Below, piece after piece: positions 1 to 4,829 of a stretch of 64,000 bases of DNA. The notes below the pieces were generated by a model. That model saw only the letters and a list, made by a program, of their open reading frames with translations, was not told the origin of the DNA and ran no database searches. Source of the DNA: Halorussus rarus (GTDB lineage: Archaea > Halobacteriota > Halobacteria > Halobacteriales > Haladaptataceae); assembly GCF_003369835.1 (NCBI RefSeq), contig NZ_QPMJ01000001.1, positions 1 to 64,000 on the forward strand, given 5' to 3'. The position numbers and the translations under genes are program-made. Position 1 is the stretch's first letter, and each line of letters begins with the position of its first letter.

Positions 1-364
1 CCACCGCCGCGTCGTCGCCCGACCCGCCGCCGGTCCGGGGCGGCCGGATCGAGAGCCGGTCGCGGCCGACCGCCCGCGAGAGCGCCTCGACCTTCTCGAC
101 GCTCGAGGCGTCGGCGGCCGGCGGGTCCCGGAGGTGGCGGTCGAGGTCGGCGTCGCCCACCAGGTCGTCGACCGCGCTCTCCAGCGTTTCGAGCCGCCGG
201 AGTATCGCGTCCGGGTCCTCGCGGGCGTCGAGTCGCCGGGCGATGCGGTCGAGGTCGCCGTCCCCGTCGTCGTCCCGACCGAACAGCCCGGCGACCCCGA
301 CCGCGGCCAGCGAGCACGCGACCCCGGCCGCGGCCAGCCCCCCGAAGGGAACGAGTACCTCCAT
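1..364 (-). CDS. Membrane-anchored protein of the tubulin-like operon (partial, C-terminus off the window)
   Basis: The frame is open from an ATG at 362-364 to the left edge, giving 121 visible residues without a stop. Residues 4-28 are hydrophobic and Gly/Ala/Val-rich (VPFGGLAAAGVACSLAAVGV) and look like one N-terminal membrane anchor. They are followed by an acidic stretch (GRDDDGDGDLD) and a charged helical region with regular Leu spacing (ILRRLETLESAVDDL), which may be a short coiled coil. The start lies 4 bp after the stop of the tubulin-like gene upstream, so the two are almost certainly co-transcribed. I do not recognise a family. Inference: a membrane partner of the tubulin-like GTPase. 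Confidence 0.7.
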   Translation of the reverse strand, partial: MEVLVPFGGLAAAGVACSLAAVGVAGLFGRDDDGDGDLDRIARRLDAREDPDAILRRLETLESAVDDLVGDADLDRHLRDPPAADASSVEKVEALSRAVGRDRLSIRPPRTGGGSGDDAAV

Positions 365-368
365 GGTT

Positions 369-1985
369 CTACGCCATGTTCTCCCGGCCGAGACACGAGA
401 ACAGCGGGTCGACCAGGTGCCAGACGTCCCGGAGGCTCTCGGCCTGGCGGCTGTTGCCCTCCTCCTTGAGCTGCTGGGCGTGGTCGTACATCGCCTCCAG
501 CGACGGCATCCGGGGGTTCCAGAGCGCGCCCCAGAGGTAGACGTCGTCGAGGTACGGGATGACCATCTGGCTGATGTGGATGTCGATGGACTCGGCGCCG
601 CTCGTGTCGTCGACGTTCAGGAACTCGTCGCCGCCGATGATTCGGCGGAGCGTGTTGTCGTTGACGTACGGCGAGACGTGCTCCATCTTCTCCTCGGGAC
701 CGTAGACCAGGAACGTGCCGCCCCACGCCGTGGTCGGGTCGAAGTCCGAGAGCTTGTTGTGGAACAGCGCGTTCCGGACCAGGATCTCGAGGCCCGACTC
801 GTCGAGCTGGGCGTCGCGCGACCGGCCGAGCACCGGCGCGAGCACGACCGCGGGGGTGTACTCCCGGTCGAGGTCGAGGGGGTACTTGTCCTCGACCGGC
901 CGGAAGCTGTCCGAGACGTCGAACACCTCGCCCTGGATCGACATGGTGGCGTCCTGGTCGACGATCTGGGGCGTCGAGGACATGGTGAACGCCTCGAGGT
1001 ACGCGACCAGCGGCTTGTTGAGCTCGGTGTACTGGGGCGGGTTGTACCGTTCGATGCCGTCGATCCGGGGCTTGACGTCGCCCTGGACGTCCTGGAGCCG
1101 CTCGTTGTTGAACGGGATGATGGCGTCTGCGGTCTGGGAGATGCGGGCCAGCCCGACCGCGCCGTTGGTCCGGGCCCGGCCGCCGAACTTGTCCTCGGCC
1201 GAGGGGATGACGACCGAGCTCAGCATCGCCTTGTCGATGACGTAGTCGTCCGACAGCACGTTCTCCCGTATCTGCTCGGCCAGCGCCGGGGTCGACCCGC
1301 ACCCGGTCCCCTTGGTCACGCTGTGGACGAACATGATGGCCTGGGCGTCGCCGATGTCCTGGGGGTCCATGTCCCACCGGTCGCGGAAGGGGTTGCCCTC
1401 CTCGAAGTCGGCCCGGACCACCTTCTCGCCGTTGTCCCAGCGCCGACCCATCCCCGAGTAGTCGTGCTTGCCGAATCCGATGATGGCGTTGGGTAGCAGG
1501 TCGTTGCGGCTGTACTCCTTGAGCTCCTGGGCGTAGTAGGTCTGCTCGAGCTCGGCGATGTTGGTGTTGAGCATCCCGTAGCCGGCGAGGCCGCCGCGCC
1601 ACACCAGCGCCCGGTCCTCGTTGTTGCGCTCGAGGGTGTCCTTCCGGAGCAGGATGGCGTCCATGATGTTGTTGCCCGCGCCGCCGACGCCGATCATGTA
1701 CCACTTCTTGCCGTACGCCGAGTCGAGCAGGTCGTCGTCGACCGAACTCCCGAACTGGTCGCCCGGACCGTCGTCCGGTTCGTCAGCATCGTCGGGCGCG
1801 ACGGGCTCCTCGCCGTTCCCGCCGACGTCGACGGGCTCGCCGTCCTCGAACAGCTGGTCGTACCGGTCGCTGTACACCGCCCGCACCGAGGTCTCGTCGC
1901 CCGCGTGCGCGCCGAGCAGGTGTTCGTCGAGGCTGTCCTCCGCCCATTCCGTCTCCGTCTGGAAGCAAATTCTGCACTTGGTCAT
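369..1985 (-). CDS. Divergent tubulin/FtsZ-like GTPase with N-terminal zinc-finger-like module
   Basis: The product is 538 aa. Seen: a phosphate-binding glycine motif IGVGGAGNN at about residues 98-106 (FtsZ T1 loop), LNTN near 139-142 (T2), IGFGKHDYSGMG near 169-180 (T3), the tubulin signature-like KGTGCGS near 225-231 (T4; FtsZ has GGGTGTG), and NNERL near 293-297 (T6; FtsZ PNDRL). The order matches the FtsZ GTPase core. Before it, C4, C7, H22 and H27 (C-x2-C-x14-H-x4-H) suggest a C2H2-like zinc site, then an acidic linker (about 47-88). The C-terminal part is longer than in FtsZ and not recognised. It is not CetZ (different N-terminus and length) and not canonical FtsZ1/2. Known: tubulin-superfamily proteins bind GTP and polymerise. 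Inference: a membrane-associated cytoskeletal GTPase acting with the two flanking membrane proteins. Confidence 0.8.
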   Translation of the reverse strand: MTKCRICFQTETEWAEDSLDEHLLGAHAGDETSVRAVYSDRYDQLFEDGEPVDVGGNGEEPVAPDDADEPDDGPGDQFGSSVDDDLLDSAYGKKWYMIGVGGAGNNIMDAILLRKDTLERNNEDRALVWRGGLAGYGMLNTNIAELEQTYYAQELKEYSRNDLLPNAIIGFGKHDYSGMGRRWDNGEKVVRADFEEGNPFRDRWDMDPQDIGDAQAIMFVHSVTKGTGCGSTPALAEQIRENVLSDDYVIDKAMLSSVVIPSAEDKFGGRARTNGAVGLARISQTADAIIPFNNERLQDVQGDVKPRIDGIERYNPPQYTELNKPLVAYLEAFTMSSTPQIVDQDATMSIQGEVFDVSDSFRPVEDKYPLDLDREYTPAVVLAPVLGRSRDAQLDESGLEILVRNALFHNKLSDFDPTTAWGGTFLVYGPEEKMEHVSPYVNDNTLRRIIGGDEFLNVDDTSGAESIDIHISQMVIPYLDDVYLWGALWNPRMPSLEAMYDHAQQLKEEGNSRQAESLRDVWHLVDPLFSCLGRENMA

Positions 1986-2019
1986 TGTTGTGTCTGCGTG
2001 ACTCCTGTCGTCGGTCGAC

Positions 2020-3909
2020 TTATCCGTACTGCTCCTGGTACCGCTCGTGGATCGCGTCGATCGCTCGGTCGGTCGAGGTGCCCTCCTTCGGCACCAGCTC
2101 GACGAACCCCGGCGGCGCGCCCTCCTGGACGTCGAGGCGTTCGACCACGTCGGTCTGGCGCCGGCCGAACCGCTCCAGCTGGGTCAGCACCGCGGGCGAG
2201 GCGACGCTCTCTGGCAGCCCGTCGGTCTGGAGCTCCGCTCGGTCGGCGTCGGTCTCCCGGCCGGCGTTCTTCAGCTCCCGGAGGACGAACAGCACCGAGT
2301 CGATGACCTCCTCCGGCCGCGCCCGGTCGCCCCGGTCGTCGTCGCCCTCGCGTCCGCTTTCGTCGCTCTCGGGCTCCGGGTCGGGGGCGGGGTCGGACGC
2401 GGCGCGCCCGGACTCCCCGCCGGCGACCGCCGCGGCGTCCGGGTAGGTGAGTCGGACCGCGCCGGCCTCGACCCGGAGCTCCACGTCGTGGTCGCGCTCG
2501 AACGCCGGCCGGAGCTCGGCGACGATCGCCCCGTCGACGCCGGCCGGGAGCGACACGCGCTCGCCGCCGTGGTCGACCGTGCCGACCACGCTCCAGACGA
2601 ACTCCGCGAGCGTGACGAGTTCGCCCGCGTCGGCCGCGGCCGACTCGGCCCGCCGCTCGGCGTCGTCGAACCGGCAGTCGTGGAGCGCGTCCTTCGCGGC
2701 GTCGAGGTCGCGCCGGACGGCCCGGACGCTCGGCAGGTCGTCGTGGCGCCCCTCGACGACGAGTTCGCGGAGCCGGTCGGCGATCCGGCCGTCGAACCGC
2801 TCGACCTTCTCCTCGACGGCGTCGAGGTCCGACTCGGCGGCCTCGGCGGTCTCGGCGAACGCGGCCTCGCGCTCGGCGAGGTGGGCTTCTACGCGCGCGA
2901 CGTGGTTGTCGACCTGCTCGACCCCCGCCGCGACGGTCTGGAGGTCGACGCCGCGGTCGAGCCGGTCGAGGAAGGCCTCGTCGACGCGGTCGACGTGGAC
3001 CGCCGCGTCGAACGCCGGGACGTCGACCTCGCGGAAGCGGCCGGGCAGGTTCACGAGCTCGTAGGCGCGGTCGTACCGCGACCAGCACTTGACGGTGCCG
3101 TAAGTAGTCCTGACGCCCGACGCGACCCGCTCGCGGAGCTCGTCGTCGATGCCGTCGACCGCGGCGTCGGGGTCGAGCGCGTCAACCCGACTCCGGAGCG
3201 ACGCGGCGTCGGCCCGGAGTTCGTCGGCCGAGCCCCGTTCGGCTGCGTCGATGTCGGCCGCGACGTCGTCGCACTCGTCGAGGAACTCCTGCCGTCCTTC
3301 ACGGGCGCGCTCGACGCCGGTCGGCGCCACGTCTGCGAGCGCGTCGAGGTCGCCGAGTCGCCGTCGGTACGCCTCCTCGAACGCCTCGCGCTTGCGGTCG
3401 AGTTCCGCCGCGGCGTCGGCGAGCTCGGCCGACTTCTCCTCGACGACCTCCTCGGCCCAGTCGTGGGTGAGCGCGGCGCCCAGCGCCGCGCCGGAGGCCA
3501 GCACCGGCACCGCGAAGAACGCGACCGCCTGCACCGCGGGCACGTCCATGCCGAAGATGGGGGAGTAGACGCCGAAGAAGAGCGCGAAGAACAGAACGGA
3601 CACGAGGCCGGCCGCCGCGAACGTCACGTCCCGGTTCCGGCGACCGAACTGGGCCACGCCCTGCGCGACCCAGGCACCCGCGATAAGGACGAACAGGCCG
3701 AACACGAGCGTCGGACTCTGCCACATGAGGACGGCGGCCGCGTCGAACACCGCGACCGACCGGATCGCGTCCTGCATCCCGCCCAGCCCGGCGGACCCGA
3801 GCGTCGTCTCCAGCATCGCCAGCGTCGTCTGTACCAGCGTCGCGAGAATCGGTACCCCTGCCAGCCCCCACGCCGCGAGCGTCGTTTTCGTTTGACGACC
3901 TGTAGCCAT
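2020..3909 (-). CDS. Multi-pass membrane protein with long coiled-coil domain (tubulin-like operon, first gene)
   Basis: The product is 629 aa from ATG 3907-3909; a GTG one codon upstream is an alternative. The first 150 residues hold about four hydrophobic segments (near 10-33, 65-88, 95-118 and 125-147). After these comes a long Glu/Arg/Ala/Leu-rich region (about 150-460) with heptad-like spacing, probably cytoplasmic coiled coil. Next is a small beta-rich stretch, an acidic Asp/Glu/Pro linker (about 505-545) and a folded C-terminal domain of about 85 residues. The stop is 34 bp before the start of the tubulin-like gene on the same strand. No family recognised. The layout suits a membrane scaffold or length-sensing partner, but that role is inference only. 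Confidence 0.75.
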   Translation of the reverse strand: MATGRQTKTTLAAWGLAGVPILATLVQTTLAMLETTLGSAGLGGMQDAIRSVAVFDAAAVLMWQSPTLVFGLFVLIAGAWVAQGVAQFGRRNRDVTFAAAGLVSVLFFALFFGVYSPIFGMDVPAVQAVAFFAVPVLASGAALGAALTHDWAEEVVEEKSAELADAAAELDRKREAFEEAYRRRLGDLDALADVAPTGVERAREGRQEFLDECDDVAADIDAAERGSADELRADAASLRSRVDALDPDAAVDGIDDELRERVASGVRTTYGTVKCWSRYDRAYELVNLPGRFREVDVPAFDAAVHVDRVDEAFLDRLDRGVDLQTVAAGVEQVDNHVARVEAHLAEREAAFAETAEAAESDLDAVEEKVERFDGRIADRLRELVVEGRHDDLPSVRAVRRDLDAAKDALHDCRFDDAERRAESAAADAGELVTLAEFVWSVVGTVDHGGERVSLPAGVDGAIVAELRPAFERDHDVELRVEAGAVRLTYPDAAAVAGGESGRAASDPAPDPEPESDESGREGDDDRGDRARPEEVIDSVLFVLRELKNAGRETDADRAELQTDGLPESVASPAVLTQLERFGRRQTDVVERLDVQEGAPPGFVELVPKEGTSTDRAIDAIHERYQEQYG

Positions 3910-4316
3910 CACCTACACATCTCTCAGGGGGGTTTCAAAAACGTTTGCCCTCGGTCCCGCGACCGAAACGCCGGGCTGGCGGCGGGATTTTCGGACATCG
4001 GGGTCGCGCGAACGCGCCGGCGTTTCGAATTATCGAGGGGTCAGTCCGGGGCTCGCACTCCGGCGAGCGACGGCTCCGGACGACTACGGAACCGCGGAAC
4101 TGCATTCGGTGACGAAGCGTCTCTCCTTACACTCGTAACCTTGAGAAAGCGCCCGAGGCGGGATTTGAACTCGAGCGGAGGCGGTCCGGGCGTGCGGCCC
4201 TGCGGGCCGTTCCGGGCGTGCGACTCCTTGTGTTCAAATCCCTTCTTCGCGTTTCGTTGCGACCGGACTCACTCGACACTGACGTGTCCCGTTCGTCGTT
4301 GGTCGCAACAGAAAGA
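3910..4316. other. Intergenic region between tubulin-like operon and tRNA-Asp
   Basis: I see no convincing gene here. The right half holds a tRNA-Asp 3'-end fragment (4145-4170), a GC-rich hairpin (arms 4195-4200 and 4204-4209) flanked by two copies of TCCGGGCGTGCG (4185-4196 and 4211-4222), and an inverted copy of the tRNA T-arm sequence (4232-4242). The left end should contain the promoter of the divergently placed membrane gene that starts at 3909. A T-rich patch near 3936-3948 (minus-strand TTTTTGAAA) is a possible TATA element. Confidence 0.5.
4145..4170 (-). repeat. tRNA-Asp 3'-end fragment (possible attachment-site scar)
   Basis: These 26 bases are identical to 4752-4777, the 3' end of the second tRNA-Asp plus five flanking bases, and nearly identical to the first tRNA-Asp (one extra base at 4316). 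The match stops inside the T-arm, so this is not a complete tRNA. Partial copies of tRNA 3' ends are what site-specific integration and later loss of an element leave behind. The same 11 bases GGGATTTGAAC recur inverted at 4232-4242. Confidence 0.6.
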
Positions 4317-4389
4317 CGCCCGAGGCGGGATTTGAACCCGCGTCACGACCGTGACAGGGTCGTATGATGGGCCACTACACCACCCGGGC
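4317..4389 (-). tRNA. tRNA-Asp (GTC), copy 1
   Basis: A 73-nt cloverleaf read on the minus strand. The acceptor 5' arm GCCCGGG pairs with CTCGGGC, followed by discriminator G. The anticodon loop CTGTCAC is closed by CGACC/GGTCG and gives anticodon GTC. The T-arm contains the GTTCAAATC consensus. No intron is visible. The gene is identical over its full length to the copy at 4757-4829. Confidence 0.95.
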
Positions 4390-4496: not shown

Positions 4497-4754
4497 TTAC
4501 TCGAACCGCTCCGACATGCGATACTCGTCTGCCCAGTGTAACCGCGATTCGGGGGCCTTCGAGTGGGGTTCCTCGACTCGTAACCGCATCTCCCCGTTCC
4601 CGGTCTCTTCGATAGGGACCCAGTATACTGCGTCCGTCTCGGACGAATACACCGCATACGCGTCGATCTCCTCGGCGGTGTAGTCCGCTTCGACGCGGCC
4701 CTCAGCGTTCACCGTCGACGCGTAGAGATCGCTCCGAACGTGAGTTCCGAAGAA
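4497..4754 (-). pseudogene. C-terminal remnant of a PD-(D/E)XK-type intron-associated endonuclease-like gene
   Basis: An 85-codon frame is open from the edge of the tRNA-Asp copy 2 to a TAA at 4497-4499, with no good start near the tRNA (a GTG at 4710-4712 would give 71 aa). The peptide (EIDAYAVYSSETDAVYWVPI, then LRVEEP, then HWADEYRMSE) resembles the C-terminal half of the haloarchaeal endonuclease-like family annotated as group I intron-associated PD-(D/E)XK proteins. That family is about 150 aa, so the N-terminal catalytic part is missing and its place is taken by the tRNA. Family assignment is from memory of conserved C-terminal words and is moderate. Confidence 0.5.
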
Positions 4755-4756
4755 AG

Positions 4757-4829
4757 CGCCCGAGGCGGGATTTGAACCCGCGTCACGACCGTGACAGGGT
4801 CGTATGATGGGCCACTACACCACCCGGGC
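4757..4829 (-). tRNA. tRNA-Asp (GTC), copy 2
   Basis: Identical in all 73 nt to the copy at 4317-4389, including anticodon GTC and discriminator G. The two genes lie in the same orientation, 367 bp apart, with an endonuclease-like gene remnant between them. This suits duplication by integration of an element that carried a tRNA 3' end, or a simple tandem duplication. Confidence 0.95.

Follow-up and report, generated by a model that had tools for sequence, protein, structure and literature searches.

The genes at the edge of the window, the whole stretch of 64,000 nucleotides of Halorussus rarus DNA that was analysed, are the first three of a haloarchaeal cluster of about 16 genes. In this cluster an 11-gene operon that encodes three tubulin-superfamily proteins (A, B, and C) is followed by a convergent five-gene module containing an AAA ATPase. 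It is moderately probable that operon and module act as a single system for membrane remodelling, a version of the Halo_adaptin ESCRT system (Makarova et al., 2024; PMC10936438) with three tubulins. Tubulin-type and ESCRT-type polymers have mostly been studied as separate machines; if the proposal is true, three tubulins and a predicted ESCRT-like module would act jointly outside eukaryotes and Asgard archaea. A plasmid of the cultured Halobacterium salinarum R1 carries the cluster in full, which makes direct tests feasible.

Gene content of the operon and the facing module

Three co-directional open reading frames, UP, A, and D1, lie on the minus strand of the window with gaps of 34 and 4 bp (Table 1). 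Base 1 of the window is also base 1 of its contig (C1), so that the end of the assembled contig truncates both D1 and the operon. The assembly breaks within D1 and again within the propeller/Ig gene, and the operon is thus spread over contigs C1, C3, and C6: the remainder of D1 (L072:1-1158) and the missing part of the operon are on C6, and the facing module is at the end of C3. Searches confined to one contig would therefore miss it. In relatives, the operon has the order UP-A-D1-B-smallTM-c5-c3-C-c6-c7-c8, and this order, with tight gaps (often -4 or -8), is conserved in 17 loci. Gene boundaries were taken from a codon-usage ORF caller built for this analysis, and start codons are consequently approximate.

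Table 1. Features of the operon, with positions in the window for those that it contains
Feature	Position	Strand	Remarks
UP	3909 (ATG)-2020	minus	629 aa; first gene of the operon
A, tubulin-superfamily GTPase with putative zinc module	1985-369	minus	538 aa
C-x2-C-x14-H-x4-H module of A	1905-1976	minus	residues 4-27 of A
T1 loop IGVGGAGNN of A	1668-1694	minus	glycines invariant in the A family and across the A, B, C alignment
T4 loop KGTGCGS of A	1293-1313	minus	conserved in the A family; K replaces the first G of GGGTG
T6 NNERL of A	1095-1109	minus	from the A-family alignment
T7-like loop G352-x3-D356-x2-D359 of A	909-932	minus	invariant in 18/18 A proteins; absent from the motifs listed in the earlier note
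D1, N-terminal part	364-2	minus	at least 121 aa; runs off the window
smallTM	after B		small membrane protein
c5	operon		signal peptide, 2 hydrophobic segments
c3	operon		2 hydrophobic segments, coiled coil, predicted beta domain
c6	operon		signal peptide, membrane segment, carboxypeptidase-regulatory-like domains
c7, c8	operon end		secreted, Ig-like, weak

The UP protein has four to five hydrophobic segments within its first 150 residues, as judged by hydropathy, and a coiled-coil-like region over residues 150-500 approximately, where heptad periodicity exceeds that of shuffled sequences (z up to 4.0). D1 is a membrane-anchored coiled-coil protein with a hydrophobic segment at residues 10-28. 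An UP orthologue is found upstream of A at all 18 A loci studied, and D1 orthologues occur downstream of A in relatives. The earlier note had described three reading frames with these gaps, a list of FtsZ-type motifs in the middle one, and membrane proteins on either side, all of which are present in the sequence, and the survey of genome context that it proposed shows the neighbours to be conserved. Its three-gene operon with a single tubulin, however, is actually the start of the 11-gene operon, which encodes three tubulins and is linked to a five-gene ESCRT-like module.

In relatives, this module follows c8 on the opposite strand and comprises a propeller/Ig protein, the AAA ATPase, c15, a coiled-coil protein, and c11; by position, c15 corresponds to a small protein and c11 to a putative winged-helix protein, both of them helical. 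The ATPase is of the Vps4/Cdc48 type (PF00004, E 1e-30; best PDB matches VCP/Cdc48), and the propeller/Ig protein combines PQQ_2 (E 2e-9) and CARDB (8e-6) matches in a single polypeptide. The N-terminal region of the ATPase, of about 210 residues, had no match in the PDB, and a VAT-N-like identity was not reproduced. Pfam and PDB sequence searches gave no PspA or Snf7 match for the coiled-coil protein upstream of the ATPase, and the putative winged-helix proteins at the expected position had no winged-helix Pfam match. The PspA-like, winged-helix, and VAT-N assignments rest on the description in the main text of Makarova et al. (2024; PMC10936438).

Identity of the three tubulins

Protein A matches the Pfam Tubulin family (PF00091, cut-off 33) at 46.9 bits (E 5e-12), and B and C also exceed this cut-off, with 39.9 and 33.7 bits, respectively. 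In the PDB, profile matches of A include BtubA, gamma-tubulin, and CetZ, and CetZ is the best match of B; profiles are required, as a single-sequence phmmer search of A against the PDB gave no significant match. Against the FtsZ equivalog TIGR00065, A scored 31.3 bits, the cut-off being 295.2, and is thus outside that family. FtsZl1/Tubulin_2 membership was rejected, because A had no match to PF13809 in the Pfam search, B reached 21 bits with a cut-off of 27, and the proteins form clades separate from FtsZl1. Neither was a viral origin of A or C retained: no relative of A was found in IMG/VR by the search used, and no relative of C in phage records.

The T1, T4, T6, and T7 residues are invariant columns in the A/B/C alignment, including both aspartates of the T7-like loop. 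When the A core was modelled with B and C rows, pTM was 0.65 with a pLDDT of only 55, and a Foldseek search of this model gave CetZ as the best match (E 5e-14, TM 0.43-0.57), at low local confidence. The model has the two-domain fold of tubulins, with the same low local pLDDT; a full-length prediction with six orthologues gave a poor core (mean pLDDT 36.5).

The N-terminus of A is a C2H2-type module and a putative zinc binder, as judged from sequence pattern and model. The CxxC...H-x4-H signature is kept in all 18 A relatives, two of which have a shorter spacer (CxxC-(11-14)-H-x4-H overall), and residues 1-50 are modelled at a pLDDT of about 80, with a histidine-bearing helix at residues 19-27. 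Pfam zinc-finger families gave no match to A.

In the phylogenetic tree, A, B, and C each constitute one fully supported clade outside FtsZ+CetZ and FtsZl1. The joining of the three clades is uncertain (84/57), and long branches are present. CetZ proteins form one clade (support 100/99) that contains none of the three, so that a placement within CetZ is not borne out; in profile comparisons A links to B, and both B and C link to CetZ. The genome of the window additionally encodes two FtsZ and four CetZ-type genes. The earlier note had assigned the middle gene to the tubulin superfamily, as distinct from FtsZ1, FtsZ2, and CetZ, and both points are supported, the former by the profile search that it had suggested, the latter by the tree and by the genome's own FtsZ and CetZ-type genes. 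The zinc-type module that it recognized is conserved, and structure prediction of the first 50 residues gave fair confidence and the helix mentioned above. It had left undecided whether A belongs to a non-canonical FtsZ-like family; according to Pfam, profiles, and tree, A is not FtsZl1/Tubulin_2.

Distribution, variants, and surroundings

Among 195 genomes, strong matches to A occurred in 15, and the ATPase and c11 were found in the same 15 plus one genome that is 59% complete. In a 303-genome Halobacteriales sample, in which the 195 appear to be included, strong matches to A and to the ATPase were present in the same 28 genomes, and A occurred in 13 of the 13 newly sampled genomes with the ATPase. 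The exceptions are the 59%-complete genome, where the ATPase is matched in part and at a contig end, and G006 and G513, each of which has a distant A-like gene and no ATPase; full-length A relatives amount to 30 of the 303. Fisher p values were 5e-36 for the 303 genomes and 7e-16 for the 108 added ones, both uncorrected for shared ancestry. No matches to c11 were detected outside Halobacteriales among 393 genomes of the phylum.

From match coordinates, A and the ATPase are convergent and about 17-21 kb apart in 24 genomes; in the genome of the window they are separated by contig ends, and G076, G153, and G533, all of one genus, have them at least 69 kb apart or on separate contigs. Co-occurrence in 25 of the 28 genomes may reflect just the inheritance of one gene cluster. 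The clustering has been kept over some 13 genera, however, and this, together with the genus in which the genes are unlinked, argues for a functional tie between A and the ATPase.

Two genomes (G132 and G138) possess the genes from B to c8 and a propeller protein without UP-A-D1 and without the ATPase. Such an arrangement, like the proximity of B and C to CetZ in profiles and of B to CetZ in the PDB, would fit a stand-alone, CetZ-like cytoskeleton for cell shape or surface architecture, with the ATPase module as a passenger or serving filament turnover only; we consider this unlikely, given that A and the ATPase share the same 28 of 303 genomes even where they are unlinked. In another variant, that of G006 (L041, L055), UP-A-D1 is accompanied by an Ig-kinase fusion; a MoxR ATPase follows farther on, together with very large proteins of the HEAT/adaptin-N-like and HEAT/PQQ types. 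These variants, including that of G513, indicate exchangeable modules that can separate, UP-A-D1 being one of them. A Tubulin_2 (FtsZl1) gene adjoins the B-to-c8 operon in G132 and G138 (L117:7989-11408; G132:C1:1884753), which suggests module exchange between two tubulin-like systems.

Protein A was found on five plasmids, one of them PHS2 of H. salinarum R1. PHS2 carries the complete 16-gene layout, with A and B annotated as cell division protein FtsZ, and Halobaculum roseum has the same layout in the part examined; no literature on the FtsZ genes of PHS2 was found. That the cluster, which is patchy, often megaplasmid-borne, and endowed with an AAA ATPase and a beta-propeller, is a defence or conflict system akin to the MoxR-vWA-propeller ternary systems is very improbable. 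The patchy presence within the genus Halorussus, the plasmid copies, and the likeness of the AAA domain to IetA/TRIP13 models would suit it, but PADLOC, run with 10 proteins, returned generic AAA matches and one marginal coiled-coil match only, and the cluster has many secreted and membrane proteins and no nuclease, toxin, or sensor. Least credible, in spite of the five plasmid copies, is a TubZ-type partition or replication system of megaplasmids, as the Halorussus operon is next to rpoH-rpoB in a large contig, membrane and Ig proteins are lacking from the small TubZ systems, and PHS2 carries its own ParA.

Between the operon and rpoH are two tRNA-Asp(gtc) genes (window 4317-4389 and 4756-4829), and a scan of five other Halorussus loci showed one or two copies at the same place; the region is a possible integration site. 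A segment not called as tRNA (window 4148-4246) matches the 3' portion of the tRNA-Asp gene at 4317 over about 20 bp and is possibly a tRNA remnant. In some Halorussus strains, a PD-(D/E)XK endonuclease gene (L043:7429-7851, PF11645 E 2e-46) is located just upstream of the operon, and near 4497-4712 the window may retain a shorter ORF related to it.

Probable function and relation to known systems

From the genes alone, membrane remodelling is the best-supported function that we infer for the three-tubulin Halo_adaptin variant, and the probable membrane role put forward in the earlier note is upheld to this extent. A, B, and C would form GTP-dependent filaments at the cytoplasmic face of the membrane; mixed filaments are possible, since a nucleotide pocket is retained in each protein, as are the T7 acids, which would complete the pocket of the neighbour. 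UP, D1, and c3 may tether the tubulins to the membrane through their coiled coils, c5-c8 may connect them to the cell exterior, and the putative zinc module of A could be a docking site for a partner. The ATPase would disassemble a coiled-coil polymer resembling ESCRT-III, and cargo for budding, vesicles, or the sorting of surface proteins would be selected by the propeller/Ig protein. Vesicle formation in Haloferax volcanii is driven by ArvA, not by CetZ or ESCRT (PMC10927574), and this counts against the preferred explanation. More tentative, and rather doubtful at present, is the narrower proposal that the three tubulins, the zinc-adaptor A with B and C, have co-evolved and together build a single mixed filament, tethered to the membrane, and that assembly of this filament is coupled to a module of the ESCRT-III/Vps4 type, both kinds of polymer then serving a dedicated membrane machine of haloarchaea.

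By profile and by fold, B and the A core match CetZ best, and the domain order is identical, but A, B, and C form separate clades outside CetZ. FtsZl1/Tubulin_2, for which membrane remodelling has been proposed (Makarova and Koonin, 2010; PMC2875224), is likewise a tubulin-superfamily GTPase encoded amid membrane-protein genes; A, B, and C differ in retaining T6/T7 and the C-terminal domain, and their standard operon is without vWA or kinase genes. Halo.Tub (Santana-Molina et al., 2023; PMC9871819) comprises divergent haloarchaeal tubulin-like proteins, noted in tandem copies and quasi-tandem among coiled-coil genes, with neither a zinc module nor an ESCRT link in the main text of that report; compared by description only, it is likely identical with A, B, or C.

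The five-gene module matches the Halo_adaptin ESCRT system as described in the main text of Makarova et al. (2024; PMC10936438): the cluster studied here and the published system both occur in Halobacteriales and include an AAA ATPase whose N-terminal region is not of the MIT type, a coiled-coil protein and a putative winged-helix gene upstream of it, a propeller plus Ig protein, more Ig-type proteins, a membrane protein, and a tubulin-superfamily protein. That text gives one CetZ-related protein and two propeller/Ig genes, whereas the cluster studied here has three tubulins of three clades, one bearing the zinc-type module, a single propeller/Ig gene, and the extra coiled-coil membrane proteins UP, D1, and c3. 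Two adjacent CetZ-clade genes are located near the unlinked ATPase module, on the opposite strand, in G153 and G076 (L111:4360-6747; L112:3160-5481), and are candidates for the CetZ-related component that the published loci contain. Relative to the main texts on Halo_adaptin and Halo.Tub (PMC10936438, PMC9871819), the three-tubulin composition, the zinc-type module, and the membrane proteins with coiled coils are new.
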